Source: Cloacibacillus evryensis DSM 19522 (GTDB lineage: Bacteria > Synergistota > Synergistia > Synergistales > Synergistaceae). Taken from it: 64,000 nucleotides of DNA. Of the stretch, positions 11,192 to 30,118 are shown piece by piece (position 1 is the first letter of the stretch; each line of letters begins with the position of its first letter). The translations under genes were made by a program, and so were the position numbers. Below the pieces are notes generated by a model that had not been told where the DNA came from, ran no database searches, and saw only the letters and a list, made by a program, of their open reading frames with translations. Location: assembly GCF_000585335.1 (NCBI RefSeq), contig NZ_KK073872.1, forward strand, positions 3,029,283 through 3,093,282, read 5' to 3'.

Positions 11192-11419
11192 CTAGCAACG
11201 CGCCTTGCCGGCCGTCCAGACGCTTGAAAGGAGGTGCCGGCAGTCCAGTTCTCCGGCTGCGACGGCGATATTCGGTTCGTATTCGCTGACGTCGACATCG
11301 TCAAGAATGCGGGCCAGCTCGATGTCGTGTATTTTTACGCCCGTATCCCTCATCGCCTGTTTAGCCTGGCGAAGCAGTTGCATATCCTCCGACAGATCGT
11401 AATTCGGCTCTCCGGGACG
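11192..11419 (-). pseudogene. Remnant of a TIM-barrel sugar-isomerase-like gene
   Basis: An open stretch of about 75 codons with no start, beginning right after the toxN stop. It encodes a segment (MRDTGVKIHDIEL...SEYEPNIAVAA...CRHLLSSVWT) that aligns well with residues about 65-100 of the intact protein at 26436-27254 (KETGVPIIDIEL...NIWTGN). Both ends of the gene are missing. It looks like a casualty of toxIN insertion or an associated deletion. Confidence 0.6.
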
Positions 11420-11917
11420 TCAGCGAAACTCCAGGCTTTTTTCTTCAAGCAGGGCAAAGTCGCAGCAGCGTGCTTTGAGGTTTTGCGAGGCAAGGTCTTT
11501 TGTGATTATCGTGTGCAGGCGCACCGCGCGGCGGACGATCATGGATTCATGGGCGTTGCACCAGTCAAGCTGGTTGTTCAGCAACTCTTTATAGTTTCGC
11601 GCGGCCCTGTCGTCCGAGACTGATATTTTCATATCGACAGGCAGCAGAGAGGGAAAATCAATGGGGATCATGTTATTTAAATTTATTGCTCCCCATACGC
11701 CCTCGTTGATTTTTAAAAAATCCGGAGCGCTGGCGATGAGCAGGTGCTTCGGTTTAGGCGAGCTTAGAGGCGCGAAATATTTAAAAAAGCGCACTTCAAA
11801 TAGGATCCCGATGAATGGCCTCCCCTCTTTGCCGCTTCCTATCCATGGGACTCTTGTATCAAACTGCCGCAGATAAGCGCAGTAGCGCACTCCGGCGTTA
11901 TAGAACTTCAGGCTCAT
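11420..11917 (-). CDS. toxN: Type III toxin-antitoxin endoribonuclease toxin, ToxN/AbiQ family
   Basis: 165-aa sequence-specific RNase toxin that is neutralised by its repeat RNA. It shows the family pattern from end to end: LKFYNAGVRYCAYLRQFD at the N-terminus, GRPFIGILFEV, the active-site motif APLSSPKPKH (catalytic Ser and Lys), GAINLNNMIPI and the C-terminal CDFALLEEKSLEFR. The length matches ToxN (about 170 aa). I chose ATG 11917; an in-frame GTG lies three codons upstream. The 35-bp tandem repeats (toxI) and a terminator sit directly upstream, the standard toxI-terminator-toxN layout. Such loci give phage abortive infection or plasmid maintenance. Confidence 0.9.
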   Translation of the reverse strand: MSLKFYNAGVRYCAYLRQFDTRVPWIGSGKEGRPFIGILFEVRFFKYFAPLSSPKPKHLLIASAPDFLKINEGVWGAINLNNMIPIDFPSLLPVDMKISVSDDRAARNYKELLNNQLDWCNAHESMIVRRAVRLHTIITKDLASQNLKARCCDFALLEEKSLEFR

Positions 11918-14947: not shown

Positions 14948-14984
14948 AATAAAACACATCTCCTTAAAAGATTTTTTATTATTT

Positions 14985-15056
14985 TTCCGTTATACGGAAT
15001 ACATAACTGTTTATCGGAAACAAGTATAAGATAAACCTCTTTTATCTACTTGTCAA
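14985..15056 (-). promoter_or_regulatory. Promoter plus tandem operator, copy 3 (aldehyde dehydrogenase)
   Basis: Minus strand: TTGACA (15056-15051), 17 bp, TATCTT (15033-15028). In plus orientation the sites are AACTGTTTATCGGAA (15005-15019) and TTCCGTTATACGGAA (14985-14999), 20 bp apart; the second is a clean TTCCGT/ACGGAA palindrome. A further related sequence, TTCCATTATACGAAA, lies upstream at 15078-15092. Confidence 0.78.
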
Positions 15057-15097
15057 GTACCGTATATCAGAATTTATTTCCATTATACGAAATTCAG

Positions 15098-15125
15098 AAA
15101 AATCCGCCCCGTTTGACAGGGGCGG
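15098..15125 (-). terminator. Terminator of the aroD-TPP enzyme operon
   Basis: CCGCCCC/GGGGCGG stem (15104-15110 with 15119-15125) followed on the minus strand by ATTTTT, immediately after the TPP enzyme gene. Confidence 0.8.
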
Positions 15126-15138
15126 AAATATACTCGAC

Positions 15139-16975: not shown

Positions 16976-17773
16976 TTACGCCTCCGTATGTGTGGGATGG
17001 ATTACGCTGAAACACTGACGAAGCTCCGCGACGGGGATCTGTCCCGGGGCCGATGACTGCGACCCCACCGCAAAGGTGAGATCCGATCCGAAGAGGCCGC
17101 CTACGAGGCGCGTCACCGCGCCGGTCGGGCCCATAGACATAGTGATGATGGGAATGCAGGGGAACTGGCGGCGCACCTCGAGCGTCGCGGAGAGAACGTT
17201 GAGGACGTCCTCCTCCTTCTGCGGCATCGCCGCGAGCTTAGCCACCTGCGCGCCCGCCGCGATCTGCTGCTTGAGTATCGAGACCAGCTCGTCGCGGGCC
17301 GGGGTCTTTTTAAAATCATGGAAAGAGACGATCAGCGAGGTCTGCGTGCCTTCAAGCGTTTCGAGGACCTTTTTTATCTTCTCTTCGCCGTATATCAGCT
17401 CCACATCGATAAAATCAACGAGCCCCTCCTTCACCGCGGCCTCATAGATACCGAACTTGGCCTCGTCGCTCACCTTCTTGAAGCCGCCCTCCCAGTCGCC
17501 GCGGCAGGTAAGGATGACCGGAGTCTCGCCGACGACGGCGCGCACCTCTTTTATCATCTCTGCCGAAGCCGTGACATCCTCGACAAAGTCCCACGCGTCG
17601 ATCCTGAGCTCGATAATATCCGGGGCGATCGAGGGAACATTCTTCGCCTCGGCGATCATCCTTTCGTGATCCTTTCCCACCAGCGGGATACAGACCATCG
17701 GCTTATCGCCGCCAAGAAGACCGTTCCGCGCCTGGATCGGGTGCCTCGGCTGCAATCGTTTTACCTGCTTCAT
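16976..17773 (-). CDS. aroD: Type I 3-dehydroquinate dehydratase
   Basis: 265-aa class I dehydroquinase, which interconverts 3-dehydroquinate and 3-dehydroshikimate by a Schiff-base mechanism. Diagnostic residues are present: ELRID (55-59), catalytic His152 in SFHDF, Schiff-base Lys179 in AKLAAMP, TMSMGPTG (211-218) and the substrate loop SAPGQIPV (241-248). ATG 17773 has AGGAGG at good spacing. It is first gene of the operon with the TPP enzyme and is controlled by the shared tandem operator rather than placed in an aro biosynthesis cluster. Co-expression with transporters suggests catabolic use (inference). Confidence 0.95.
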   Translation of the reverse strand: MKQVKRLQPRHPIQARNGLLGGDKPMVCIPLVGKDHERMIAEAKNVPSIAPDIIELRIDAWDFVEDVTASAEMIKEVRAVVGETPVILTCRGDWEGGFKKVSDEAKFGIYEAAVKEGLVDFIDVELIYGEEKIKKVLETLEGTQTSLIVSFHDFKKTPARDELVSILKQQIAAGAQVAKLAAMPQKEEDVLNVLSATLEVRRQFPCIPIITMSMGPTGAVTRLVGGLFGSDLTFAVGSQSSAPGQIPVAELRQCFSVIHPTHTEA

Positions 17774-17802
17774 AAAAAAGCCCTCCTGTTTTATCATATT
17801 CT

Positions 17803-17874
17803 TTTCGTTATGCGGAAACCGCGACTATTCTAAGGAAACGCATATACATTAACCCGATATTCCAAAATTGTCAA
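17803..17874 (-). promoter_or_regulatory. Promoter plus tandem operator, copy 4 (aroD operon)
   Basis: Minus strand: TTGACA (17874-17869), 17 bp, TAATGT (17851-17846). In plus orientation the sites are GACTATTCTAAGGAA (17823-17837) and TTTCGTTATGCGGAA (17803-17817), 20 bp apart. Geometry is identical to the three other copies. Confidence 0.75.
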
Positions 17875-17993
17875 GATACCATTTGACAGATTTTCTTTCT
17901 GTTCTGTGGAATTAATAATAATGGCACATTTGTAAATGATGACGCTGAATTTATTTTTCAGAAAAGAAAGATCAGATGTTATGCGACAAAAAA

Positions 17994-18947
17994 TTACACG
18001 CCGAGAAAGGCAATCCACACCGGGATGGTGACTGCGGATAGGAGCATCGTTATCACAGTCAGCTCGGCGGCGTGATCGCCGTCAAGGCCGATACCGCGCG
18101 CCAGGACGAAGAGTGTCGCCGCGGTCGGCGTCGCCGTCACAAGCACGGAGACGTTTTTCAGCGACAGCTCAACTCCCGCTGCGGTAAGGCAGAAATAGAG
18201 CATCGCGGGATGAACGAAAAGACGCGCGGCGATTTCTCGCCAGCAGGAAAGGAGCGCGCCGCGTGCGTTTTTCACATCGATTGAAGCGCCGAGGACGAGA
18301 AGCGACATCCCGGTGGCGGCGCTGCTCACCATGTGAAGCGCCTTGTCAAGGCTGTCGGGGAGGCTCTCCAGCCCAGCGAATACCAGCAGCATCCCGCATA
18401 GCGGCGCTACTACCATGGGGTTTTTTATGATCCTCAGACATGTGTTTTTCAGAAAAACTTTCAGGCTGTCCCTGCCCGCGAGAATGATTTCGCTGGAAAG
18501 CGGCGACAGCAGATTGTAAAGCGGTATCGCGACTGCGGCATAGAGTGAGAGCAGCACGACGAAGGGCGGGCCGAATACCGACTCCACAATAGGAAGCCCC
18601 ACGTAGATGGTATTGGGTCTCACAGAGGCCGCCGCTGTCAGCGCCATCTTACGCGCGTCACGTTCTTTAAATATAAAACGTTCAGTAATATAGGCGAGGA
18701 GCGCGGTAGCGAGCGCGGCGGCGACAATGGCCCCTACGAACGGAAGATGCCCCCTAAGGCCACCCTCTATATGGAAGGCGTTGCGGAAGAGCAGCGCTGG
18801 GGAAATTATCCAGAAGAGGAACTTGGATATAGCCGCGATGTCGGATTTTGTTATGAATCCCCTGACGGAGAGGATATTTCCGGCAGTCAGCAATATCGCC
18901 AGCGGCGATATAAGGATGAAGCCTCTCAGCAGTTGGCTAAAGGCCAT
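17994..18947 (-). CDS. AEC-family (auxin efflux carrier-like) transporter, copy 1
   Basis: 317-aa membrane protein with about ten helices, two inverted five-helix halves and the AEC patterns RPNTIYVGLPIVESVFG and NPMVVAPLCGMLL. Bacterial AEC proteins often move dicarboxylates or related acids. It follows the GntR regulator by 47 bases on the same strand and is probably controlled by it. It is about as long as, and strongly similar to, the AEC protein at 58277-59224. The substrate is not readable; the neighbourhood suggests an acid of the same pathway. Confidence 0.88.
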   Translation of the reverse strand: MAFSQLLRGFILISPLAILLTAGNILSVRGFITKSDIAAISKFLFWIISPALLFRNAFHIEGGLRGHLPFVGAIVAAALATALLAYITERFIFKERDARKMALTAAASVRPNTIYVGLPIVESVFGPPFVVLLSLYAAVAIPLYNLLSPLSSEIILAGRDSLKVFLKNTCLRIIKNPMVVAPLCGMLLVFAGLESLPDSLDKALHMVSSAATGMSLLVLGASIDVKNARGALLSCWREIAARLFVHPAMLYFCLTAAGVELSLKNVSVLVTATPTAATLFVLARGIGLDGDHAAELTVITMLLSAVTIPVWIAFLGV

Positions 18948-18994
18948 AGATTGTTACGGACAGTTTCTGCATGGTTTCGTTTTTGCTCTTCGCG

Positions 18995-19675
18995 TCAGTT
19001 TTCTTTTTTTGCGGTGTGCTTCAACTGATAAACCTTCAGTATCTGCGCGCAGTGTTCGCTGATACATTCGAGCGCCTCGCCGACGTCGCCGTTCCAGAAG
19101 GCGTTTATGAGGCGGCGGTGCTCGGCGACGATCAGGTCGGCGTCCCTTTTCGGATAGATCGACTGGACGTCGAGGCGCATCATGTCGTCGTAGATCTTGG
19201 ACCAGAGCGGCGCCAGCTTCGTGATCCCGAGCTTGTCCACGATCGCGCTGTGAAATTCCATATCCTTCTTCATAAACTCGGTGGGCGAATCCTTGAGCTT
19301 TTCCATTTCGTTCGTTATCGGGACGAGCGAACCGGCAAGCACCTGCGGCTCGCCCGATTCTATTATGCTCTTGATCGCGAAATGCTCTATCATGTCCCTC
19401 AATTTAAAAAGCTCGATGACGTCGGACTCCTTTATCTCGGAGACCACCGCCTTGCGGCGCTCCTCCCAGACGATCCAGCCTTCCTGCAGCAGGAGTTTCA
19501 GCGCCTCGCGCACCGGCGTGCGGCTGATCTTAAAATCCTCGGCGAGCGTCCTCTCCATCATAACGCTTCCGGGCAGAAGTTCGCCGTTGATTATCCTCTG
19601 CTTGAGCGTCTCATAAACCATTGAGGAAAGGCTCTGGTCTTTTTTATGTTCATCCTGATGCTTTGCGGCGTCCAT
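18995..19675 (-). CDS. GntR-family regulator, FadR/FCD subgroup
   Basis: 226-aa regulator. The N-terminal winged helix (residues 15-85) has VYETLKQRIINGELLPGSVM and EDFKISRTPVREALKLLLQE, the GntR signature. The all-helical C-terminal FCD domain (95-215) is present, with the usual acidic and histidine positions for a metal or carboxylate effector. It is first gene of a unit with the AEC transporter. It is the only GntR in the window and so a candidate for the shared operator, although FCD regulators more often bind GT/AC-type palindromes. Its own promoter region (19739-19804) includes the palindrome GTATAATATAC. Confidence 0.9.
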   Translation of the reverse strand: MDAAKHQDEHKKDQSLSSMVYETLKQRIINGELLPGSVMMERTLAEDFKISRTPVREALKLLLQEGWIVWEERRKAVVSEIKESDVIELFKLRDMIEHFAIKSIIESGEPQVLAGSLVPITNEMEKLKDSPTEFMKKDMEFHSAIVDKLGITKLAPLWSKIYDDMMRLDVQSIYPKRDADLIVAEHRRLINAFWNGDVGEALECISEHCAQILKVYQLKHTAKKEN

Positions 19676-19738
19676 GATCGGCGGCTCCCATCTTTGAATA
19701 TTTTTGACATTCCAAATGATAGTTAAACATTTTCCAAC

Positions 19739-19804
19739 TAGACAAAAAATACCTTAATATGTATAATATACCCATATTCTACACACTATACTTACATCTG
19801 TCAA
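19739..19804. promoter_or_regulatory. Overlapping divergent promoters of gntR (minus) and the glutaredoxin gene (plus)
   Basis: Minus strand: TTGACA (19804-19799), 17 bp, TAGAAT (19781-19776). Plus strand: TAGACA (19739-19744), 17 bp, TATAAT (19762-19767). The plus -10 lies within the palindrome GTATAATATAC (19761-19771), which also covers the predicted gntR start point, so one bound repressor could act on both. Confidence 0.6.
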
Positions 19805-19822
19805 ATTCCGGAGGCCAGAAAA

Positions 19823-20113
19823 ATGATCACGATTTACGGCAGCGACCAGTGTCCCAAGACGGTAAAGATCCTCGAACTCTGCAAAGAGCGCGGGATCGAG
19901 GCGAACTACAGAAATTTTGAGAAAGAACTGAAAAGCATCTGGGAGTTCGTCGTCATACGCGACGAAGATTCAAACTTCGACAAGACGAAAAAAAGCAAAA
20001 GGCTCGGCATCCCAGCCATCGTCTGTGAAAACGGCCACACCTTCGACGGCGGCGAGGAGCCCTTCGACGCGGAGGCCGTCATGCGCGTGATCGCGGAAAA
20101 CGCGAAGGACTGA
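19823..20113 (+). CDS. Glutaredoxin-like protein
   Basis: 96-aa thioredoxin-fold protein. It opens MITIYGSDQCPKTVKILEL, so the active-site region is C-P-K-T with a single cysteine (monothiol-like). The cis-proline segment LGIPAIV follows near residues 63-69. Family members bind glutathione or act as thiol reductants; a monothiol site could also suit Fe-S handling. A ribosome site (CCGGAGG) precedes ATG 19823. It is divergent from gntR and transcribed alone into a bidirectional terminator. Confidence 0.8.
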   Translation: MITIYGSDQCPKTVKILELCKERGIEANYRNFEKELKSIWEFVVIRDEDSNFDKTKKSKRLGIPAIVCENGHTFDGGEEPFDAEAVMRVIAENAKD

Positions 20114-20127
20114 CGATAATTTCCCCC

Positions 20128-20163
20128 AAAAAAGAGCCTCGGCAGAACGCCGTGGCTCTTTTT
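20128..20163. terminator. Bidirectional terminator
   Basis: AAAAAGAGCC...GGCTCTTTTT hairpin with A and T runs on both sides, between the convergent glutaredoxin and MFS genes. It serves both strands. Confidence 0.85.
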
Positions 20164-20173
20164 GCATTCTGTT

Positions 20174-21415
20174 TTATTTATAAAAGGCCCGGACCTTCGT
20201 TATCTGGTAAAAACTCCAGCCCTGAATGAGCAAAATAACGCCAAAACCGAGAAGAAAACCTTCTTCTTTATAATATCCGGCCGCTCCGGCGGAAAAGAGA
20301 TCGAGCACCGCGCCCGTGCCCCACTGGAAAACTATCACGCCGAGGTAGATGAGCATGTTTATCACTCCGATGATCCCAGCGTTTTTATCAAGCGGCGCGA
20401 GGGCGCGCACCGCGTTTCCCGTAAAGACGTAGCCCGCGCCGTTGAAAAAACCTATCGCGAAGCCCGCCGCTCCGAAAACGGCGGCGGCGTCTCCGAAACG
20501 CGGCGCGGCCATCCACAAAAGCCAGCTTAGCTGATTCAGCACACAGCACCAGAGAAAGGCCCTTTTTTCATGGCGGGGCGGACAGCGTTTGAAGAAGAAA
20601 CCGCCCGCCGCCGGACCGACGACGAGCCCGACGCTTATCAGCGTGGCGCAGAGGCGCGCCGAGGAAAGCTCCGCGCCGGCCGCGCTCTGTATCCAGCTGA
20701 CCGCCCACAGCCCCTGCAGCGCGGCGATGGCCGCGGCTGTCGAAGCCCAGGTGAGCATGACGACGCGCAGCGGAAAGAGCCGCCACGATGTTTTGGCCGT
20801 CGCGACAAGCTCCGAGACCACCTCCTTGACGGCGAGCCGCCGCGTTCCTGCGGAGAAGGCAAGGCGCGGATCGCGCTCTTTGAAGGCCAGCAGGATGGCG
20901 CCCAGCAGAAGCGCCGCGAAGGCAAGGGCGAAGAATACGCCGCGCGGCCCGGCAAGGTCGAGGCACCAGCCCAGCGGGGCGACCGCCGCCACCGTCCCCG
21001 AATGCCCGACCACAAGGCACATTCCCACCAGCGCCGGATAATTTTCCCGGGAAAAGGCGTAGGCGCAGTACATCAGAAGCGCCGTGAAGGCGCTCGCCAT
21101 CCCCAGGCCGCAGAGAGCGCGCCCCGCGCCGATGGCGAGGGCCGAGGCGGAGGCTCCCATCGTAAAACAGCCGGCGGCGGCCAGCAGCAGCGACGCTCCG
21201 CAGCAGACGAAGGGCCCCCTATTGTCCACCAGTACGCCCCAAACTCCGTAACTCGCGCCGTAGGTGTAGAAAAAGAGGCTCGAAAGAAAGGCGACGGCGG
21301 CCGCGGAGAGTCCCATCGACACGGCGAGCGGCGGCAGGACGACCACGCCCGAGACGCGCATCAGGTTGCTCATGAAATAGGCCGCCAGCAGCACGGCAAG
21401 GAAGAAATACTTCAT
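20174..21415 (-). CDS. MFS transporter
   Basis: Major facilitator superfamily permease of about 413 aa with twelve hydrophobic helices (first KYFFLAVLLAAYFMSNLMRV) and the loop VDNRGPFVCCGASL between helices 2 and 3 that corresponds to motif A. ATG 21415 overlaps the stop of the preceding TIM-barrel gene as ATGA, indicating translational coupling. It is the last gene of the nine-gene operon that begins with aroE copy 3, so it should move a substrate or product of that pathway. Substrate unknown. Confidence 0.85.
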   Translation of the reverse strand: MKYFFLAVLLAAYFMSNLMRVSGVVVLPPLAVSMGLSAAAVAFLSSLFFYTYGASYGVWGVLVDNRGPFVCCGASLLLAAAGCFTMGASASALAIGAGRALCGLGMASAFTALLMYCAYAFSRENYPALVGMCLVVGHSGTVAAVAPLGWCLDLAGPRGVFFALAFAALLLGAILLAFKERDPRLAFSAGTRRLAVKEVVSELVATAKTSWRLFPLRVVMLTWASTAAAIAALQGLWAVSWIQSAAGAELSSARLCATLISVGLVVGPAAGGFFFKRCPPRHEKRAFLWCCVLNQLSWLLWMAAPRFGDAAAVFGAAGFAIGFFNGAGYVFTGNAVRALAPLDKNAGIIGVINMLIYLGVIVFQWGTGAVLDLFSAGAAGYYKEEGFLLGFGVILLIQGWSFYQITKVRAFYK

Positions 21416-22245
21416 CTCACCGCGCACCGCGCCGGGCAAAAGATATTACTCAAGTACGCTATCCCATCGCGCGCTACGCTGTCCTCGTCGGGCACGGGAC
21501 GGCATTCTATCGTCACCCAGCCGTCGTAGTCGATCGAGCGCAGCGCCGCCGCCGCCGCGCGGAAGTTGAAATGCCGGTCGTCGGGCAGCAGCCGCCCGCA
21601 GTCCGAGACGTGGAAAAGGCTCATCCGCTCCTTTGCCAGCCGCAGCGCCGCCGCGACATCCCCCTCCTCGCTGATCATGTGATAGGTGTCGGCGTTGTAA
21701 AAGAGACGCTTTGAGCGGAACTTTTCGATGAAGCGCAGCGTCTCCGCCGTCGAATTATAGAGGTCGCCGTCGCGCCGGTTGATCTGCTCGAAGCAGATGC
21801 GCCCGTCGATCTCGTCGGCGTATTCGATTATTTTGTACATGCTTTCGGAGAGGCGCGATTCGTACTGCTCCGCGGTGTCGTCGGCCTCCATGCGGCCGCG
21901 CAGAAAACCTATCAATATCTGGCTGTCCAGCTCGCGCGCAAAATCCAGCTGGCGTTTGAGCCGTTCCACCGTCTTCGCGCGTACCGAGGAATCCTTCGCG
22001 CTCATATTGTGTCCCTCGAAGAGGTAACTGAGGCCGGTCGTCACAGCGGAGGCGCGCATCCCGTAACGTTCCAGGCTCCTGCGCACCGCCGCGTAGTCGT
22101 AATCGAGCGGGTTCTGTATCTGCAGCTCGATCGCCTCGTACCCGAACGCGGCGGCGCGCCGCGCGCACTCCTCATAGCTGCCGCGCAAAGGGAACGGGAA
22201 GTCTGCAGGCAGCGGAATATCCACTGCTATTATGCTGAATCTCAT
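21412..22245 (-). CDS. TIM-barrel protein of the sugar phosphate isomerase/3-dehydroshikimate dehydratase superfamily (copy A)
   Basis: 277-aa AP-endonuclease-2-like TIM barrel. Metal-binding positions are recognisable on successive strands: RICFEQINRR, FYNADTYHM, LFHVSDCGR and WVTIECRP, giving the Glu/Asp/His/Glu set of this superfamily. Relatives include IolE/IolI, hydroxypyruvate isomerase and the AsbF/QuiC 3-dehydroshikimate dehydratases. It sits in an operon with a shikimate dehydrogenase-like enzyme, so dehydration or isomerisation of a hydroaromatic keto acid is plausible (inference). ATG 22245 is preferred over an upstream TTG at 22254. Confidence 0.78.
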   Translation of the reverse strand: MRFSIIAVDIPLPADFPFPLRGSYEECARRAAAFGYEAIELQIQNPLDYDYAAVRRSLERYGMRASAVTTGLSYLFEGHNMSAKDSSVRAKTVERLKRQLDFARELDSQILIGFLRGRMEADDTAEQYESRLSESMYKIIEYADEIDGRICFEQINRRDGDLYNSTAETLRFIEKFRSKRLFYNADTYHMISEEGDVAAALRLAKERMSLFHVSDCGRLLPDDRHFNFRAAAAALRSIDYDGWVTIECRPVPDEDSVARDGIAYLSNIFCPARCAVR

Positions 22246-22282
22246 TATTCTCAACTCTTTTTGTCTTAGTTTATTGTAAAAA

Positions 22283-22912
22283 TCAGCGGTCGATCTCGAT
22301 CGGCATATATACGCAGTCGGTGATGCTGTGATATTGGTGCCACGGATAATAGCCGGTCTCGTCGTAAAACTTGTCGTGGACTATGCCCGGGGCCATGATG
22401 ACCTCCTGGTAGAAGGTCTCGTCGCTGTTTTCGGTGAACTTCTGCATCTTGCCGAAGCCGAGTATCTGCGCGTGTACCTCGTCAAAATCGGGCGTGTGCG
22501 TCTGATGCTTCCCCGACGGCGCCATCGGTTCGGCGTAACAGAAATTTATCCTCCTGCCGCCGACCGTTATCTGCGGCGATTTGTAATAGGGAATGCCGCG
22601 ATGGCGCTCGAAGCCCGAGACGTCGAAGAGCGACGGCCATGTGCTTTTCATAGATGCCCAGAACTCCGGCTTTCCAGCGTCTTTGTCGTAATCCCTGACG
22701 ACGAGCGCCTGCTTTATCCGCATGACGGCAACGTTCTGCACTACCGTGCCCTTCAGCGGAAGGAGCGGGATCGTCTTTACAAAGATATTCTCTCCCCCGT
22801 TCACCGAGAAGTTAAAGACGAGGCTCTTTTCCTTTATAAAATATTCCGCTTCGTTTTCGACATATTCGACGTCAAAGAACGGACGCGCGAAATCGAGTTT
22901 TGTTATGCTCAT
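22283..22912 (-). CDS. Cupin-like protein of unknown function
   Basis: 209-aa protein. The central part has KHQTHTPDFDEVHAQILGFG, which fits a cupin metal site (HxH, then Glu and His), and the C-terminal part adds HDKFYD and WHQYHS. The N-terminal 110 residues (KTIPLLPLKGTVVQNVAVMR) also look beta-rich. I do not recognise a characterised family. As the seventh gene of the hydroaromatic operon, between dctM and a TIM-barrel enzyme, it may be a metal-dependent isomerase or lyase (inference). A GGAAG ribosome site supports ATG 22912. Confidence 0.6.
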   Translation of the reverse strand: MSITKLDFARPFFDVEYVENEAEYFIKEKSLVFNFSVNGGENIFVKTIPLLPLKGTVVQNVAVMRIKQALVVRDYDKDAGKPEFWASMKSTWPSLFDVSGFERHRGIPYYKSPQITVGGRRINFCYAEPMAPSGKHQTHTPDFDEVHAQILGFGKMQKFTENSDETFYQEVIMAPGIVHDKFYDETGYYPWHQYHSITDCVYMPIEIDR

Positions 22913-22931
22913 TTTAAGACACTTCCTTTCG

Positions 22932-24221
22932 TTAATTGCCAATCAGGCAGAGTGTGACCTGCGGGACATAGGTTATGATTATAAGCGCGACGGCGAATAC
23001 CGCGAGCAGAGGCACCGCTTTTCTCGCGACGGTCATGGCGGAAAGCTTCGTCATCGCCGCGGCCACAAAGAGATTCATGCCCACGGGCGGCGTCACGAAG
23101 CCTATGGCGAGGTTCACGACCATCAGCACGCCGAAGTGCACCGGATTTATTCCCGCCATCATGATCACGGGCAGGAAGATCGGCGTCATGATGAGGATCG
23201 ACGCTCCGGTGTCTATAAGCATTCCTATCACAAGCAGGATCGCGTTTATTACGACCAGCAGCAGAATCTTGTTTTCCACGAGTCCCCCGAGGGTTTCCGC
23301 CACGAGCTGCGGGACATGAAGAACGGCCAAAACCTTCGCGAAGGCCGCCGCCGCGCCGATTATCAGCACACAGGGAACGAGAGTCCGCGACGTCTGTACA
23401 AGAATTGGAACGATATCCCTGTATGTGACCGTCTTATAGACGAAGAGGCTGATAAAGAGCGAGTACAGCACCGACACGAGAGCCGCCTCCGTAGGCGTTA
23501 CGATCCCTCCGTAGATGCCGCCGAGAACGATGATCGGCGTCATCAGCGCCCAGGAGCTGTGGCGCAGTATCTTCCAAAGTCCCTGCGCGCGCAGTTTGTC
23601 GACTGATGCGTTGATCTTTTCCTTATCCTCTCCGTGCTTCTTGCAGTAGAACCAGGCGTATCCCATTAGCATCGCACCAATAAGTATCCCGGGCATCACG
23701 CCGCCGACAAACATGTCGCCGACCGAGACGCTGCTGCTGTTTGAATACATTATGAATGGGATGCTCGGCGGGATTATCACGCCGAGGCCGCCGGCGACGG
23801 CGACGAGTGCGGCGCAGAAGCTAAGCTCATAGCCAAGGCTCACGAGAAGCGGGATCGTCATCATCCCTACCGCCGCGGTGGTGGCGGGGCCGGAGCCGGA
23901 GATCGCGCCGTAGAAGAGACAGGTGACGACGACAGCGCAGGGCAGGCCGCCCGTGCATTTGCCGATAAAGAACGAAAAGACGTCGAAGAGCAGCTTCGAT
24001 ATCTGGCCGTAGCCCATGATTATCCCCGAAAGCATAAAGAGCGGGATCGCAAGCTGCGTCGTCACGTCAAGCCCGGACACCATCGCCATGACTATATACT
24101 CAAGGTCGACGATAAATTTCGGGTCCAGAAAGCTTGGTATCGAAGAGGCGATTATCAGTGTGATGCCAATAGGCACGCCCACTAAAAGCAGCGCGATGAA
24201 TCCGACCGTAAGCAAAAGCAT
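22932..24221 (-). CDS. dctM: TRAP transporter large permease DctM
   Basis: 429-aa, about twelve-helix large TRAP subunit. Family signatures are visible: CLFYGAISGSGPATTAAVGM (residues about 100-120), GGLGVIIPPSIPFIMYS and GGIYGGIVTPTEAALVSVLY, then the C-terminal half GFVTPPVGMNLFVAAAM. The start codon overlaps the dctQ stop (TAATG). It forms the importer of the 28160-20174 operon with dctQ and dctP. Confidence 0.96.
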   Translation of the reverse strand: MLLLTVGFIALLLVGVPIGITLIIASSIPSFLDPKFIVDLEYIVMAMVSGLDVTTQLAIPLFMLSGIIMGYGQISKLLFDVFSFFIGKCTGGLPCAVVVTCLFYGAISGSGPATTAAVGMMTIPLLVSLGYELSFCAALVAVAGGLGVIIPPSIPFIMYSNSSSVSVGDMFVGGVMPGILIGAMLMGYAWFYCKKHGEDKEKINASVDKLRAQGLWKILRHSSWALMTPIIVLGGIYGGIVTPTEAALVSVLYSLFISLFVYKTVTYRDIVPILVQTSRTLVPCVLIIGAAAAFAKVLAVLHVPQLVAETLGGLVENKILLLVVINAILLVIGMLIDTGASILIMTPIFLPVIMMAGINPVHFGVLMVVNLAIGFVTPPVGMNLFVAAAMTKLSAMTVARKAVPLLAVFAVALIIITYVPQVTLCLIGN

Positions 24222-24718
24222 TACTTCGTACCTCCTCTATTTTCAGAACCACAGGCAAGCATCCTGATAGTAACATATCCGAGCTGTGCCAATCTGATCA
24301 TCGACAGGACTATCGAAAAAACGATCGTCCAGTATATGAGGTCAAGCGAATATGGCAGTGTCGTCGCCGCCGTGTGCCCCATCCGTTCCGCCAGAATCGT
24401 GGAAGGACGGATCAGGATCGTAAAATATACGAGCATCACGCCGTAAGACACAAGCGAGAGGATCATTTTAGCGCGCTCTGAGATAAACTCCATCACCACG
24501 TCGAGTTTTATCGCGATATTCTCCTTTATTGAAAGGCTGATCCCCAGAAATGTTATGCAGACGAAGACGTGACGGCACAACTCCTCCGACCATGAAAGGA
24601 ATGAGGAGAAAAAGACGCTCAGCGTTATCTGCGCCGTCATTACGACGACGAGAACCGCGATGCCAAGGGATATCAGCGATACCTCAAAATACTTGTCCAG
24701 CCAGTGCAGCAGTTTCAT
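24221..24718 (-). CDS. dctQ: TRAP transporter small permease DctQ
   Basis: 165-aa four-helix subunit with the LSWSEELCRHVFVCITFLGI region typical of DctQ. It overlaps dctM by one base and lies 80 bases after dctP, across a hairpin (24750-24771). Confidence 0.94.
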   Translation of the reverse strand: MKLLHWLDKYFEVSLISLGIAVLVVVMTAQITLSVFFSSFLSWSEELCRHVFVCITFLGISLSIKENIAIKLDVVMEFISERAKMILSLVSYGVMLVYFTILIRPSTILAERMGHTAATTLPYSLDLIYWTIVFSIVLSMIRLAQLGYVTIRMLACGSENRGGTK

Positions 24719-24749
24719 TATCCGACCCCCATAATCTTTATTGATTCCG

Positions 24750-24771
24750 GGCCGCCCATGGACGGGCGGCC
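24750..24771 (-). terminator. Hairpin between dctP and dctQ
   Basis: Perfect 8-bp GGCCGCCC/GGGCGGCC stem with a 6-base loop and no strong T run. It may stabilise the dctP message or cause weak termination, raising receptor over permease. Confidence 0.5.
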
Positions 24772-24798
24772 GTTGAACACCGTAAAATTATTGTCCGT

Positions 24799-25836
24799 TT
24801 AGTCTTTTATGCCGCATGTTTTAAGATATGCTTCAAGCAATTTCGGATCGACCTGCTTTGCGGCGCGCTCCCTGGCTCCCTTGAGCGTGGCTTTGCGAAG
24901 CTGGTCCCTGAGGCCGGGAATTTTGTCAAAGTCAATAAACTTCATGCCGCGCTCTTTGACAAGCTTGTCGCGGAAGCCCTCTTCCGACTTATCGGAATAT
25001 TCGCATATCATCTTTGCCGTCTCATTGGCCGCCTCCGCTATTATCTTCTGCGCCTCGGGCTGCAGCGACTTCCATGTCGCCTGTCCCGTAAAGAATATTA
25101 TATTGTGGAAGATATGGTTGCTGTTGGTCACATACTTCTGGACCTCGTAAAGCTTCTTGTCATAGACCTGGCTGTACGGATTCTCCTGCCCCTGAAGCAT
25201 TCCCTGCTGCAGCGCAAGGTATACCTCTGAGGCGTTGAGTGGCGTCGCCTTCACGCCCAAAGCTTCGAAGAAGGCGATATGGTTTTTGTTTTCCATCGTG
25301 CGCAGCTTCATACCCTTGAAATCGCCGATGCTCTTGATCTCCTTATTAGTCGAGATGATGCGGAAGTTGGAATCTGTCGTCGAGAGCAGATGATATCCGG
25401 CCTTCTCATATTCCCTGCCTATCACCGCGAGCCACTGAGGGTCGGCCAGAGCCTTCCTCGCGGATTTGACGTCCTTGAAGGTAAACGGGATGTCATAGAC
25501 GGCAAGCGCGGGGATGACGTTGACGACCATCGCGGGAACCGTGACCATGAAGTCCACCTTGCCGACCTTCATCGTTGAAAGGCAGTCGATATCCGTGCCG
25601 AGAATATTCTGTCCGAATACGTCGACCTTAAGCTTCCCGCCGCTCTTTTTCTCGACCAGTTCCTTAAAATTGTTGGCAAAACGCGCGTTCGTACAGTCGA
25701 GAGGCCCCGCATAGTGAAAGACCATCGTTCTCGGCTTGATTTCCGCCGCGGCGGCCGCGCCTCCGAAAATACCGCCGAATACCATCGAAATGACGGCTGT
25801 CGCCGTTAAGATCACGCCATAAATATTCCTCTTCAT
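24799..25836 (-). CDS. dctP: TRAP substrate-binding protein DctP
   Basis: 345-aa periplasmic receptor with a long signal peptide (hydrophobic core AVISMVFGGIFGGAAAAAEI). The DctP features are FKGMKLRTMENKNHIAFFEA, with the arginine that binds substrate carboxylate, and GQENPYSQVYDKKLYEVQKY. The substrate should therefore carry a carboxylate. It lies between a VOC gene and dctQ in the operon headed by aroE copy 3, which suggests a shikimate- or quinate-like acid (inference). Confidence 0.94.
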   Translation of the reverse strand: MKRNIYGVILTATAVISMVFGGIFGGAAAAAEIKPRTMVFHYAGPLDCTNARFANNFKELVEKKSGGKLKVDVFGQNILGTDIDCLSTMKVGKVDFMVTVPAMVVNVIPALAVYDIPFTFKDVKSARKALADPQWLAVIGREYEKAGYHLLSTTDSNFRIISTNKEIKSIGDFKGMKLRTMENKNHIAFFEALGVKATPLNASEVYLALQQGMLQGQENPYSQVYDKKLYEVQKYVTNSNHIFHNIIFFTGQATWKSLQPEAQKIIAEAANETAKMICEYSDKSEEGFRDKLVKERGMKFIDFDKIPGLRDQLRKATLKGARERAAKQVDPKLLEAYLKTCGIKD

Positions 25837-25921
25837 AAATCCATACCCCTTTACAATTTTATTTTTTCAATCGTTTATGCCGATTGACGTTTCCGTTCGT
25901 TTTATACCGCGGCGGGGAAGG

Positions 25922-26380
25922 TTACTCCGGCTTCTTCGTCACGACTTCGATGAAGGTCCCCATCTCTTTGCGGCAGTCGTAGTAGGCAAACTGCGTCAGC
26001 GCCCCGATACCGTTGAATGTCGGATCGCCGTATCTGCTCTTCATATAGGCGTTCAATTCGTCGAACGGGATATCGTCGGTGTCAAAACAGAGATGGTGAA
26101 GCCCCTCGCCGCACTCTTGCAGAAAATCATAATAGATGCTCTGGTCGTCGAGCGGCTGCATCAGCTCGATCTGCACACCGTTAAAATCCGCCACGGCCAT
26201 GCTCGATTCGATTCGATGGGGACGCCCGTTCTTAAATACCGGGCCGCATGTGCCGCGTGAGGAACTCAGGAAAAATTTCCGGAACTCCCCCGCGCCAAGG
26301 CCGACCCAATGCTCAATTGCCTTGTCGATATCCGTCACCACCATGCCTACCTGCTTCAATCTTTTTGCCGCTATCTTCAT
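25922..26380 (-). CDS. VOC-superfamily protein (glyoxalase/epimerase/HPPD-like fold)
   Basis: 152-aa vicinal-oxygen-chelate protein with two beta-alpha-beta-beta-beta modules. Likely metal ligands are Gln in KQVGMVV (where many relatives have His), Glu in GVQIELMQP, His in GLHHLCFDTDD and Glu in GTFIEVVT. It adjoins the TIM-barrel gene at 26436. Known two-domain QuiC-type 3-dehydroshikimate dehydratases fuse a TIM barrel to an HPPD-like VOC domain, so this pair could be a split version (inference). ATG 26380 follows GAGGTG. Confidence 0.75.
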   Translation of the reverse strand: MKIAAKRLKQVGMVVTDIDKAIEHWVGLGAGEFRKFFLSSSRGTCGPVFKNGRPHRIESSMAVADFNGVQIELMQPLDDQSIYYDFLQECGEGLHHLCFDTDDIPFDELNAYMKSRYGDPTFNGIGALTQFAYYDCRKEMGTFIEVVTKKPE

Positions 26381-26435
26381 GATATTCACCTCAAGTTGTA
26401 AGTTTTTAATCTATATGACGCCGTCCAAAACCGCG

Positions 26436-27254
26436 CTATGCGATGCCGTGCTCCGCAAAATATTTCTTGGAGCGGCTAAGCACCCGTCTTACATGCTCCT
26501 CCGCCCCAAGCCGCTTCGTGCGTTCCGCGTGCGGTATCTCAAGGCCCAAGACAGTCTCCGGCGGCAGCGCCGCCGCGTACTCCGCGACGGGCAGCGCGCC
26601 TTCGCCCGGATAGAGCCTTTCATTGCCGGCCGTGTACGCAAGGCCTCGCGGGTCGATCTCGGCGGGCGCGTCGCAGATGTGGGCCACCGGGGCGATCAGT
26701 TCGCGCGGGCAGGCGGCGACCTCCTCCGGCGTAACGCCGGAACGGAAGGTGTGGAGCAGGTCGAAGGCGACGCGCGTGTTCTTCCTGCCAGTCTTTTTTA
26801 TGAGCGCGAGGGATTCTTTCAGATCCTTAACGTCGGACCAGGTTACAAATTCCAAATTGACCGACATCTCAAACTCGGCGGCGAGATCGCAGAGCCCGGC
26901 AAACTTTTCTTCGTAGAACGAGACGTTCCCCGTCCAGATATTCGTCGTCAGGTTCCTCACACCGAGGCACGCCGCCGCCTCAAGGTCGGGCGCGAACTCG
27001 CGGATATCCTTTATAGAATCGTTGATTTTTATCAACTCGATATCGATGATGGGAACGCCAGTCTCCTTCACCGCCCGCTCCGTAAGCGCGAAAAGTTCCC
27101 TGTCGGAAGCGATGTCGTGGACCAGCTCCGCCGGCGCGCCGCGGTTGATCGTCCGCGGACTCACATAGTCGTAGCCCGCGGCGGCCGCGTTATATATCAT
27201 CTCCGGCAGCGTCCAGCACATTCTTGTCAGATGTACGAGCGAATACTTTCTCAT
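26436..27254 (-). CDS. TIM-barrel protein of the sugar isomerase/3-dehydroshikimate dehydratase superfamily (copy B)
   Basis: 272-aa AP-endonuclease-2-like barrel with candidate metal/catalytic residues in IIDIELIK, VNLEFVTW, VAFDLLHTFR, AHICDAPAE and LGLEIPHA. It starts 15 bases after aroE copy 3 and is followed by the VOC gene. Dehydration of 3-dehydroshikimate or a related ring compound would fit the operon (inference); hydroxypyruvate isomerase- or IolI-type activities are alternatives. A remnant at 11192-11419 and the partial gene at the right window edge look like relatives. Confidence 0.78.
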   Translation of the reverse strand: MRKYSLVHLTRMCWTLPEMIYNAAAAGYDYVSPRTINRGAPAELVHDIASDRELFALTERAVKETGVPIIDIELIKINDSIKDIREFAPDLEAAACLGVRNLTTNIWTGNVSFYEEKFAGLCDLAAEFEMSVNLEFVTWSDVKDLKESLALIKKTGRKNTRVAFDLLHTFRSGVTPEEVAACPRELIAPVAHICDAPAEIDPRGLAYTAGNERLYPGEGALPVAEYAAALPPETVLGLEIPHAERTKRLGAEEHVRRVLSRSKKYFAEHGIA

Positions 27255-27269
27255 CCCTTTTCTTCGCTC

Positions 27270-28160
27270 TTATGATTTGAGCCGGCCCTGCGCGCGCAGG
27301 AAATTCATCTCGGCGAGATACATGAAATCGGCCGGGGCCTCAATGCCGAACCAGAGGCGCATCTGCTCTATCGCGCCGTTGATATTCATCCAAAGGCCCG
27401 AAAGCGTCGCGCAGCCGCGCGCCTTCGCCTCGGCAAGCAGCTTCGTCTCCGCGGGAACGTAGACAACGTCGCAGACCGTGTGCGCGGGCGAAAGCCACTC
27501 CGTATTGAAAAGTACCGCGTCCGACTTAGGGTACATCCCGACCTTTGTCGCATGGACGACGACGTCGTAGTCGGCGAGATTTTTCTCTATCGTTTCGTCA
27601 TTCATATAATCAACGGTGCAGCGGCCCGGATAGAAGATCTCTATTCTGCTTTGCAGCTTCTCCGCGAGCGCGAAGTCCTCTTTGATGTTGAGCACCTTCA
27701 GGTCCTTCGCGCCGCTCTTTGCGAGGGCCGCCGCCACCGCGCTCGCCGCGCCGCCCGCGCCGAGAATGAGGAACTTATGCTCGGCGATGTTCATACCGCA
27801 GCGCGTCTCAAAAGCCTTGACACAACCGGAGCCGTCCGTGTTGTACCCGATGAGCCGTCCCTCCCCGTCGACGACGATAGTGTTGACGACCTCCGTACAG
27901 CGCGACGATTCGTCAAGGCCGTCCAGGTACTTGTAGACGACAGTTTTGAAGGGCATCGTCACGGAGGCGCCGCCGAAATGGAACCGCTTGAGATTCCTCA
28001 CGACATGCTCGAGGTCCTCCATTTCAATTTCGTACGGCGCGTAAAAACAGTCCATGCCCAGCGCCTGATAGACGCTGTTGTGCAGATATGCCGCCGCGCT
28101 CTGCCCCAGCGGATTGCCGAAAAGCCCGATAAATTTTGTGTTGACTGTCGAATTGAACAT
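27270..28160 (-). CDS. Shikimate/quinate dehydrogenase-family enzyme with altered binding loop (copy 3)
   Basis: 296-aa AroE-family oxidoreductase. Lys72 in SVTMPFK, NTDGSG (107-112) and GAGGAAS (134-140) are retained. The substrate loop reads GNPLGQSAAAYLHN, so the second Ser of the usual SxS pair is Ala and the His-Ser of GHS is Gln-Ser. In quinate-active relatives the same position is Thr, so substrate preference is probably not plain shikimate. GAGAAG upstream supports ATG 28160, although an in-frame ATG at 28232 would add 24 poorly conserved residues. It is first enzyme of a nine-gene operon with TIM-barrel, VOC, TRAP, cupin and MFS genes. Confidence 0.88.
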   Translation of the reverse strand: MFNSTVNTKFIGLFGNPLGQSAAAYLHNSVYQALGMDCFYAPYEIEMEDLEHVVRNLKRFHFGGASVTMPFKTVVYKYLDGLDESSRCTEVVNTIVVDGEGRLIGYNTDGSGCVKAFETRCGMNIAEHKFLILGAGGAASAVAAALAKSGAKDLKVLNIKEDFALAEKLQSRIEIFYPGRCTVDYMNDETIEKNLADYDVVVHATKVGMYPKSDAVLFNTEWLSPAHTVCDVVYVPAETKLLAEAKARGCATLSGLWMNINGAIEQMRLWFGIEAPADFMYLAEMNFLRAQGRLKS

Positions 28161-28235
28161 TTTTAGATCACTTCTCTCTTTTGGATTTGCTGTTTCTGTT
28201 TCACTAAAATTATTTTTAGGCCTTTTCGTCATGAT

Positions 28236-28292
28236 TTAGATATCCGCAGGCTTTATTTCCACCTGCTTAACGCGCTTTGCCGGTTTCTTCAT
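28236..28292 (-). CDS. Short basic ORF at the head of the operon (18 aa)
   Basis: ATG 28292 has AAGGAG nine bases upstream and encodes MKKPAKRVKQVEIKPADI. It lies between the operon promoter and aroE copy 3. Its ribosome site is better than that of the next gene. It is not aromatic-rich and no terminator follows, so it is not a classical attenuator peptide. It may act as a translational leader or small protein; function unknown. Confidence 0.4.
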   Translation of the reverse strand: MKKPAKRVKQVEIKPADI

Positions 28293-28370
28293 GCCACACC
28301 ACTCCTTATATAAAAATTTCTAATATATATAACGCACACTTATTTATATAAAATATTTATTAATCTTAAT

Positions 28371-28405
28371 AGGTATACCTTAATTAATATGGTGTGGATT
28401 GTCAA
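28371..28405 (-). promoter_or_regulatory. Promoter and palindromic operator of the aroE copy 3 operon
   Basis: Minus strand TTGACA (28405-28400), 17 bp, TAAGGT (28382-28377). The perfect palindrome AGGTATACCT (28371-28380), extended by TTAA on each side, overlaps the -10. GGTATACC cores are typical operators of FCD-type GntR repressors, and one such gene lies at 18995-19675. It differs from the TTCC...GGAA operator. Confidence 0.65.
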
Positions 28406-28671
28406 GCACCAGAATGGTACTTTAAAAAGTGCCATACGGGGGCGATGCTCCGCCGGGAGAAAACAAAGTGCTGTCGGAGTTTGCGCCGGGCAAACGTGTC
28501 AACGAAGATCAGGACATAGACGCTCCGATGGCCGCCGGCGCGGCCGGCTTTGCCGTTTGCAGCGGCGTGTGCTTTGGCAGAACGCAGCGCGCGGCGGCGG
28601 TCCTGAAGAGGCGCGCCTTTTCTGCTATAATGCAACACAGTTAAGTTGCGTTTTTATTTGAGGTGGGGCGG
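28406..28671. other. GC-rich intergenic stretch before modC
   Basis: No convincing gene. Open frames occur on both strands but none has a ribosome site or recognisable product. A plus-strand TATAAT (28626-28631) about 40 bases before modC is a probable -10 element of the molybdate operon, with a poor -35. Confidence 0.45.
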
Positions 28672-29370
28672 ATGTTGGAGATCGATGTCGTAAAAAGGCT
28701 CGGCGGCTTTTCGCTCGAGGTGAGGGCCAATATCGCTGAGGCGGGGATCACGGCGCTCGTCGGGCCGTCAGGCGCGGGAAAGAGCACGGCGGCAAAGCTC
28801 ATGGCGGGGTTGCTCGCGCCCGACCGAGGCAGGATCGCCTTTAACGGGACTGTATTCTTCGATTCCGCCGCCGGCGTGAACATTCCCGCCGAGCGGCGCG
28901 GGATCGGTTTCGTCTTTCAGGAGCACCGACTCTTCCCCCACATGTCGGTGATGAGGAATCTCGCCTACGGCTCTTTTGCCGGAGGCAGGCGGACGAAGGC
29001 GGATCTCCTGCGGACGGCGGAGATTTTCGGCATTTCGGCGCTGCTCGACCGCCGCCCCGACACGCTCTCGGGCGGCGAGAGCCAGCGCGTTTCGCTGGCG
29101 CGCGCGATATTGGCGGCGGAAAATTTCATTATTATGGACGAGCCGCTTTCGTCGCTCGACGAGGCGCGCAGGGACGACCTTATGGGCTATATCGAGAGGA
29201 TACCGGGACATTTCGGCCTCCCGATAATTTATATAACGCACAGCAGGGAGGAGGTAATGCGGCTCGCGAAAAATGTGATTTTGATCGAAGAGGGCCGGGT
29301 GAAGGGGCGCGGAAGCCCCGCTGGATTGATGGGGAGAGGCGGCAGTGCCTCTCGCGAATGTCAGGAATAA
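28672..29370 (+). CDS. modC: Molybdate ABC transporter ATP-binding protein
   Basis: 232-aa ABC ATPase with Walker A GPSGAGKST (about 33-41), Q-loop FVFQEHRLFPH, signature LSGGESQRVSLARA, Walker B FIIMDEPLSSLD and the switch histidine in ITHSREE. FQEHRLFPHMSV is typical of ModC. The usual C-terminal Mop-like regulatory domain is missing (232 versus about 350 aa), so molybdate feedback may be absent. ATG 28672 follows AGGTGGGG. First gene of modC-modA-modB-modD. Confidence 0.88.
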   Translation: MLEIDVVKRLGGFSLEVRANIAEAGITALVGPSGAGKSTAAKLMAGLLAPDRGRIAFNGTVFFDSAAGVNIPAERRGIGFVFQEHRLFPHMSVMRNLAYGSFAGGRRTKADLLRTAEIFGISALLDRRPDTLSGGESQRVSLARAILAAENFIIMDEPLSSLDEARRDDLMGYIERIPGHFGLPIIYITHSREEVMRLAKNVILIEEGRVKGRGSPAGLMGRGGSASRECQE

Positions 29371-29389
29371 TGAAAGGATGGATTTATCG

Positions 29390-30118
29390 ATGAAAAGGTT
29401 ACTTACGGCGCTGCTCGTCCTGCTGGTTTTCTGCGCGGAGGCGCGCGCCGCAACGCCCGCCGTCACCACGGGAGCAGGCTATATGAAGATGGTCCAGGAG
29501 TTGGCGGCGGCCTATAAGAGCGATACCGGCAAACAGGTGCAGGAGGTATACGGCGGCAATATCGGCCAGATGCTCGCGCAGATCGAGGCCGGCAACGGCG
29601 TGAATGTCGTGATAAGCGACAAGGGAGCGCTGAAAACCGCGAAGTCTGACGTGAGGATCGCGAAGATGCAGCCGCTTGGAGCGACTGTGCTGGTCCTGGC
29701 CTGGCGCAAGGGGATAGAACTCTCTTCGCCGAACGATCTGACGGGCGATAAGGTGAAGTCGGTCGCCTATCCCGATCCGAAGGCGGCGATCTACGGCCGC
29801 GCCGCCGCGAAGTATCTTGAAACAACCGGCCTCGGGGCGAAGATAGCGCCGAAGGTATCGCAGGTCTCGACCGTACCGCAGGTCTTTTCTTATCTGGTAT
29901 CGGGCGAGATGGACGCGGGCTTCGTGAACCGCGTCGTCGCGCGCGCGGGCAAGGATAAGATCGGCGGCTCGCTGGAGATCCCCTCGGGCTATCCGCCGAT
30001 CGAGATGGTGGCCGCCGTCGTTGAAGGGGCGGAGAACGACCCGGCCGTCGCCGATTTTCTTAAATTCCTCGGCGGTAACAGGGCGGGAGCCATAATGAAG
30101 AAGCACGGCGTGCAGTAG
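29390..30118 (+). CDS. modA: Molybdate ABC transporter substrate-binding protein
   Basis: 242-aa periplasmic oxyanion receptor with a signal peptide (KRLLTALLVLLVFCAEARA). It has the ModA-type order TTGAGYMKMVQELAAAYKSD, YGGNIGQMLAQIE, VVISDKGALK and YPDPKAAIYGRAA. A start at 29390 fits the signal peptide and has AAAGGATGG upstream. Position between modC and modB supports molybdate or tungstate binding; which of the two is not clear from sequence. Confidence 0.88.
   Translation: MKRLLTALLVLLVFCAEARAATPAVTTGAGYMKMVQELAAAYKSDTGKQVQEVYGGNIGQMLAQIEAGNGVNVVISDKGALKTAKSDVRIAKMQPLGATVLVLAWRKGIELSSPNDLTGDKVKSVAYPDPKAAIYGRAAAKYLETTGLGAKIAPKVSQVSTVPQVFSYLVSGEMDAGFVNRVVARAGKDKIGGSLEIPSGYPPIEMVAAVVEGAENDPAVADFLKFLGGNRAGAIMKKHGVQ

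Follow-up and report, generated by a model that had tools for sequence, protein, structure and literature searches.

We analysed a 64,000-nt window of the genome of Cloacibacillus evryensis DSM 19522 (G000; 3,488,464 bases), in which nine genes for predicted enzymes and transporters follow one promoter, and compared it with a second genome of the same family and another genus (G173). The explanation that we favour, with moderate confidence, is that positions ~17978-28437 form a self-contained 10.5-kb catabolic cassette that is expressed as one transcript, is controlled by its own GntR repressor of the FCD type and is separate from a neighbouring branch marked by a different palindrome, TTCCGTATAACGGAA. 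From the gene content, its conservation and co-inheritance and the occurrence of two different motifs, all of which were directly observed, we infer the transcript, the binding of the repressor, its inducer and the chemistry. Coordinates follow the window numbering unless marked G000:C1 or given as genome positions.

28400-28405, minus strand: -35 element TTGACA, kept in G173
28377-28382, minus strand: -10 element TAAGGT, 17 bp from the -35 element, kept in G173
28375-28384, minus strand: half-site ATTAAGGTAT, common to the gntR promoter
28371-28380, minus strand: AGGTATACCT, putative operator (GT-AT-AC), GGTATACT in G173
27270-28160, minus strand: aroE3, AroE-like dehydrogenase (open reading frame extends to 28232)
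26436-27254, minus strand: TIM1, AP_endonuc_2 TIM barrel, distant relative of Lmo2234
25922-26389, minus strand: VOC (Glyoxalase_4) protein
24799-25836, minus strand: DctP, solute-binding protein of a tripartite ATP-independent periplasmic (TRAP) transporter
24221-24718, minus strand: DctQ, TRAP small permease
22932-24221, minus strand: DctM, TRAP large permease
22283-22912, minus strand: cupin-like protein, no Pfam family (open reading frame extends to 22942)
21412-22245, minus strand: IolO-like TIM barrel, epimerase homologue (open reading frame extends to 22254)
20174-21415, minus strand: MFS transporter (open reading frame extends to 21439)
20129-20163, both strands: two-way hairpin terminator between the MFS gene and arsC, read from the sequence; the terminator scan lists its minus strand
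19823-20113, plus strand: arsC, ArsC/Spx-like gene, divergent from gntR, in the conserved unit
19749-19758, minus strand: second ATTAAGGTAT, gntR promoter region
18995-19675, minus strand: gntR, FCD-type regulator, candidate repressor
17994-18947, minus strand: AEC (Mem_trans) transporter, the gene that ends the conserved unit

Organization and conservation of the cassette

An earlier note on this DNA had described nine same-strand genes with small gaps or overlaps, forming a single operon that ends at a bidirectional terminator, and this description holds. All nine open reading frames (ORFs) are present on the minus strand, from 28160 down to 20174, in the order AroE-like dehydrogenase, AP_endonuc_2 TIM barrel, VOC protein, DctP, DctQ, DctM, a Pfam-less protein, IolO-like TIM barrel and MFS transporter; gene order and gaps support one operon, and the terminator was found at ~20129-20163, between arsC (plus strand) and the MFS gene (minus strand). 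With start codons judged likely, the eight intergenic gaps are 15, 46, 85, 80, -1, 19, 37 and -4 nt. The TRAP set is complete, with PF03480 (DctP), PF04290 (DctQ) and PF06808 (DctM) each above cut-off. The aroE3 ORF reaches up to 28232, and the broken copy in G173 begins at the position matching the ATG at 28160, which is probably the true start; from this start, the leader would be ~200 nt long.

Comparison with G173 revealed three collinear BLASTN blocks, at 17978-22882 (90.7% identity), 25926-26488 (84.0%) and 27956-28437 (86.9%), and the TIM and TRAP genes gave four further matches that were short (59-217 bp) and weaker (68-80%). The conserved unit begins at the operon promoter, closes with the AEC gene and includes arsC and gntR, whose product is 97% identical in the two genomes; thus gntR has remained linked to the operon and its promoter in G173, whereas aroD lies outside the unit. 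Upstream of the unit, the genes of the two genomes differ. Of the 61 bp of the promoter core, one is mismatched (P 0.002 for a divergence of 13% and 0.019 for 9.3%), and the conservation of the promoter block is above expectation. Near-perfect conservation runs from the -35 element to about 20 bases past the operator-like site, so that both sides of it are covered, and the sole mismatch, C to T, turns GGTATACC into GGTATACT while leaving GT-AT-AC intact.

The middle of the unit has changed. In G173, aroE and TIM1 have been deleted, the 5' part of aroE now abutting the 3' part of TIM1, and because the truncated ends of both genes remain there, the state in the window is the older one for these two genes. 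Between the VOC and cupin-like genes, G173 carries an AKR gene, another TIM barrel (38% identity with TIM1) and a TRAP set that shares only 39-56% identity with that of the window. The deletion of aroE and TIM1 and the presence of a different transporter suggest that cassettes have been exchanged under one promoter.

An operator-like palindrome and a linked FCD regulator

The operon promoter was not listed by a consensus scan because its -10 element, TAAGGT, matches only three of the six consensus bases. The claim that this element is covered by the palindrome proved accurate, in that AGGTATACCT, read from 28380 to 28371, overlaps its last four bases. The GT-AT-AC within AGGTATACCT fits the operator rule NyGTN(2-3)ACNy given in PMC4494728, which describes FCD regulator sites with two nucleotides between GT and AC as a known class. 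The palindrome is symmetric in all five pairs of its 10-bp core and then in five of eight, and no extension beyond 10 bp is symmetric without a gap. The half-site ATTAAGGTAT has five exact copies in G000 and three in G173, and in each genome two of these are at the operon and gntR promoters; for the sharing of a 10-mer between the gntR region and the fixed 26-bp operator, shuffling of the gntR region gave P=0.022.

A search for other GGTATACC promoters, proposed in the earlier note, revealed no genome-wide regulon motif: the exact word occurs 18 times in the 3.49-Mb genome and its reversed control 26 times, and the word is thus not enriched. Three of the 18 sites lie inside the window (0.33 expected, Poisson P 0.005), the two besides the operator-like site being within dctP and at the tctB/tctA join. 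Fourteen of the 17 other sites sit inside mechanically called ORFs of at least 179 aa; the three outside such ORFs are at the tctB/tctA join, at genome position 737943, which has no promoter-like match around it, and at 2716755, within a weak promoter-like match (9/12) between two ORFs. The copy at 2716755 is the one other in a promoter-like context, and we dismissed the idea of a genome-wide regulon marked by GGTATACC. A second AGGTATACCT, at 25217 inside dctP, was treated as a chance occurrence; it falls over the stretch coding EVYLALQ, which we take to be a common DctP motif.

The GntR protein (18995-19675) matches PF00392 with 61.3 bits and PF07729 with 54.8 bits, both above cut-off, and its gene starts 8.7 kb from the operator-like site. 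A D..H..H..H pattern, presumably the FCD metal ligands, is invariant in 11 aligned GntR proteins. The FCD GntR placed ~9 kb away by the earlier note is thus present, although its proximity loses weight because the genome has 27 FCD matches, one of which would, by simple arithmetic, fall within 9 kb by chance in about 14% of cases. The accompanying claim of a GntR-type core fared similarly: the GT-2nt-AC spacing, the half-site in the gntR promoter and the co-occurrence in G173 speak for it, whereas the core palindrome is not invariant. On these grounds, GntR control of the operon is the favoured, unproven arrangement, with AGGTATACCT as a candidate binding site.

Two described types of system resemble this arrangement. 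FCD GntR systems (PMC4494728) share with it the GntR and FCD domains, a linked catabolic operon of the carboxylate type and a short GT..AC promoter palindrome; here, however, the core is not invariant, the gntR promoter carries a half-site only and binding is putative. E. coli NanR, likewise an FCD GntR, reads GGTATA repeats, and this word overlaps the promoter in both cases; NanR (PMC8012715) uses two or three direct repeats and binds a single repeat poorly, whereas the word here is the inverted GGTATACC.

A neighbouring branch with a different palindrome

The earlier note had also proposed two differently regulated branches, which we consider likely from the adjacent branch, with its different palindrome and different candidate regulator. 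TTCCGTATAACGGAA-like palindromes with 0-2 mismatches occur in the window at 14985-14999, 15078-15092 and 17803-17817, before the aldehyde dehydrogenase gene ALDH1 and aroD, and at three further places within 4.2 kb to the right of the window; 6 of the 15 genomic places at up to two mismatches fall within 53 kb around this island. At up to three mismatches there is no excess (45+45 in the genome and 42+45 in the control). The palindrome recurs upstream of TIM or thiamin diphosphate (ThDP) enzyme genes in five genomes (G001, G011, G020, G021 and G173), and among the other TIM loci scanned (L080-L083, L087-L092 and L094-L097) only L090 gave a match, inside a gene.

TTCCGTATAACGGAA may be the operator of the GntR clade, but its preferred reader is an IclR orthologue. 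This protein (genome positions 514984-515721) has matches at E<=1e-40 in 40 of 185 phylum genomes, and its gene is 84% identical between G021 and G000. A TIM homologue lies within 15 kb of 20 of the 31 tabulated IclR matches; the table holds matches of at least 46% identity, 19 weaker ones being left out, and its TIM entries come only from genomes relevant to the comparison. In G070, G073 and G074, the gene order is ALDH1-TctC-TctB-TctA-TctC-TIM-aroE3-IclR. The inference is weakened because the IclR gene of G000 lies 2.5 Mb from the island. The TTCCGTATAACGGAA sites are probably read by this IclR regulator, although similar sites occur close to relatives of the GntR, and those before ALDH1 and aroD possibly form an IclR regulon.

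In the same branch, a ThDP enzyme and an aldehyde dehydrogenase of the CoA-acylating type (13508-16971) are 93-94% identical to their counterparts in G021, of another genus (locus L079, 14500-17911), whereas the TIM, GntR and DctM of that locus are only 44-53% identical to those of the window; the high identity may reflect either recent transfer or strong constraint.

Proposed mechanism and alternative explanations

In the cassette as we envisage it, the TRAP system would import a carboxylate, the non-canonical AroE-type dehydrogenase and the metal-dependent TIM-barrel enzyme would perform an oxidation and then an isomerisation or dehydration, and the keto product would be processed by the cupin-like protein and the IolO-like epimerase, with the VOC and MFS proteins assisting. 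One sigma-70-type promoter would yield a single nine-gene transcript, and the FCD GntR of the cassette would bind GGTATAC over the -10 element and act on its own promoter through the same half-site until released by a carboxylate inducer, while the neighbouring TTCCGTATAACGGAA branch would be under separate control, probably by IclR. Several observations weigh against this scheme. When the two promoter regions are compared in full, a common 10-mer is unremarkable (shuffling, P=0.12), and matches of 10 bases or more to the operon promoter region occur in 53 of 1260 overlapping stretches of the window. The only change in the promoter core of G173 hits the palindrome, the 80-85 nt gaps could hold internal ends or starts, and the chance expectation for a nearby FCD gene, given above, is appreciable. 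In addition, the GntR clade could recognise a TTCCG-like motif instead, because such palindromes lie within 4 kb of four of nine other clade loci at up to two mismatches and of six at up to three (reversed control, 0/9).

A possible, if somewhat unlikely, alternative is that the operon is one regulated unit in which AGGTATACCT is read by another regulator, the linked GntR serving, for example, the aroD/ThDP branch through TTCCGTATAACGGAA. It draws on the clade-associated palindromes, one of which stands at 17803 before aroD, 1.2 kb beyond gntR, on the helix-turn-helix core SRTPVREAL of the window GntR, which is identical in six of the nine other members, and on the further candidate readers of AGGTATACCT among the FCD proteins; the retention of gntR with operon and promoter in G173, with aroD outside the unit, argues against it, as does the IclR orthologue, which is another, perhaps better, candidate for TTCCG. 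That AGGTATACCT is no operator and the block is conserved as the -10 and start region of an AT-rich promoter controlled elsewhere seems to us unlikely: the lack of enrichment of GGTATACC, the end of symmetry after the 10-bp core and the C-to-T change would all fit, yet conservation extends over both sides of the site, and the rare half-site ATTAAGGTAT recurs at the gntR promoter. Finally, we regard it as quite improbable that internal ends or starts split the genes into aroE-TIM-VOC, dctPQM and cupin-IolO-MFS transcripts. Such a split is suggested by the 85- and 80-nt gaps, in each of which a hairpin is possible by eye, by a weak promoter-like match before dctP (25883-25856, promoter scan) and by the different middle segment of G173; neither gap, however, shows a hairpin with a clear T-run on the operon strand, and no other join exceeds 46 nt. 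The hairpin in the dctP-dctQ gap (24719-24798), the GC-rich GGCCGCCCGTCCATGGGCGGCC without a T-run, resembles an mRNA-stabilising intercistronic stem and perhaps raises dctP mRNA. A terminator scan of the region gave 24 matches against 14.8 expected (both strands), and the minus-strand matches inside operon genes were taken for chance.

Candidate enzymes and substrate

AroE3 matches 17 NCBIfam shikimate/quinate dehydrogenase models (one of them bifunctional) and scores below the cut-off of each, the best being NF001319 (236.5 bits against 252) and TIGR00507 (197.9 against 200.2); of the Pfam domains, Shikimate_dh_N is above its cut-off (70.8 against 27) and Shikimate_DH narrowly below (23.9 against 24.3). 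K72 and D109, in the columns of the catalytic Lys and Asp of AroE, are invariant in an alignment of nine proteins. In AroE shikimate/quinate dehydrogenases, a Ser-x-Ser motif and a C-terminal Gln hold the substrate; AroE3 reads QSAAA where aroE1 reads HSASP, SAA replacing Ser-x-Ser, and INGA where aroE1 reads VYQGA, with loss of the Gln. Relatives at E<=1e-80 occur in 10 of the 185 genomes, its own included, with 48-58% identity besides itself, and AroE3-type and TIM genes are adjacent also in G070, G073 and G074. The word hydroaromatic, which the earlier note applied to the operon, may stand for the aroE/TIM half at most, and there it is weakened by the missed cut-offs and the lost substrate-contact residues.

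TIM1 has homologues in 65 of the 185 genomes and no NCBIfam family at 1e-3. It weakly matches Lmo2234 (2g0w; E 1e-7), which we take to be a QuiC2-type dehydroshikimate dehydratase of Listeria, and adjoins an AroE homologue; the match, however, covers only 123 residues, AroE3 is non-canonical and the activity of TIM1 is putative. Its E135, D165, H168, H192 and E239 are invariant in 15 relatives, and some of them may correspond to the metal ligands of AsbF, given as Glu142, Asp172 and Glu253 in PMC9324987.

The cupin label given earlier to the seventh protein has no support from hidden Markov models: Pfam searches with five members were empty up to E 1, and in the PDB a profile matched nothing and the single sequence just a VOC chain (E 0.91). 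A His/Glu pattern is conserved, and a single-sequence structure model reached a pLDDT of 34. An earlier look at 40 relatives had found the protein in its own genome only (1/40); the phylum-wide search found it in five of 185 genomes, and an alignment-based scan in 32 named loci, mostly Clostridia by record title, where a single-protein scan of named genomes had found none. At 17 of these 32 loci, IolO-like (at least 45% identity) and GFO-like (at least 40%) genes lie within 6.5 kb of the cupin-like gene, and aroE and TIM genes are each near it at two of the 32, several contigs being short. The cupin-like, IolO-like and GFO/IDH module was seen at L158, L160, L161-L169, L171, L172, L174-L176 and L183. 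In Cuneatibacter sp. NSJ-177 (L160), the cluster reads AKR-dctPQM-GFO-aroE-TIM-cupin-cupin-IolO-GFO; in a single same-strand run, it combines the transporter type of the window with AroE, TIM, cupin-like and IolO-like genes, and it differs in having AKR and GFO dehydrogenases and in that VOC and MFS genes were not found by tblastn.

The IolO-like protein matches NCBIfam NF041099 (IolO) with 186.3 bits and TM_0416 (2zvr), presumably the IolO 5-keto-L-gluconate epimerase, at E 5e-36; the score is below the 300-bit cut-off, the partner is the cupin-like protein, and the operon lacks a GFO dehydrogenase. Among solved structures, 7bbr is the best relative of DctP; we take it to be a protein of Advenella that binds sugar acids. 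PMC5812351 mentions that this genus takes up sugar acids through a TRAP system. The substrate of the operon may thus be a hydroaromatic, cyclitol or sugar acid.

Other features and the wider island

Two candidate features were rejected. One was a possible attenuator, a leader ORF of 18 aa with a good ribosome site (28292-28236), of which G173 keeps neither the start codon nor the frame; an Rfam scan of 17000-29500 gave a sole match, rnk_pseudo at 20128-20228 on the minus strand, with 27.8 bits against a threshold of 55. The product of 19823-20113 was named ArsC/Spx-like presumptively, from the look of its sequence. The window (G000:C1 3029283-3093282) lies inside a larger island, G000:C1:3012109-3097438, which holds three GntR paralogues (at 3027452, at window position 18995 and at 3094451), another aroE3 (58%) at 3012109 and two more TIM paralogues at 3093255 and 3096476. 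A remnant of a TIM-barrel gene with an internal stop codon is present at 11207-11425 (G000:C1:3040489-3040707).

Implications

The regulation proposed here, by a GntR encoded close to the catabolic operon, is ordinary in kind, and the enzymes are uncharacterised; literature searches on the breakdown of hydroaromatic compounds by anaerobes or in this phylum, judged mostly from search results, returned nothing on this operon. We speculate, with low confidence, that the cupin-IolO-GFO triad makes up a catabolic module, so far unrecognised, which in Clostridia and in this phylum is combined with varied cassettes of dehydrogenases and transporters, in this case behind a single conserved promoter, and that the operon is part of an oxygen-independent route, similar to the inositol pathway, for hydroaromatic or cyclitol acids in anaerobes, in which AroE3 would form a cyclic ketone, TIM1 would dehydrate or isomerise it, and the cupin-like and IolO-like proteins would open or reshape the carbon ring. 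The comparison with G173 indicates that one promoter and regulator have been kept while the substrate-specific cassette differs. The possible importance of the locus lies in its enzyme set, a Pfam-less cupin-like family that accompanies IolO- and GFO-type genes in Clostridia, several of whose records come by title from gut or rumen, and that stands here with an AroE/TIM pair. This set provides a concrete, testable candidate for the anaerobic processing of hydroaromatic or cyclitol acids.

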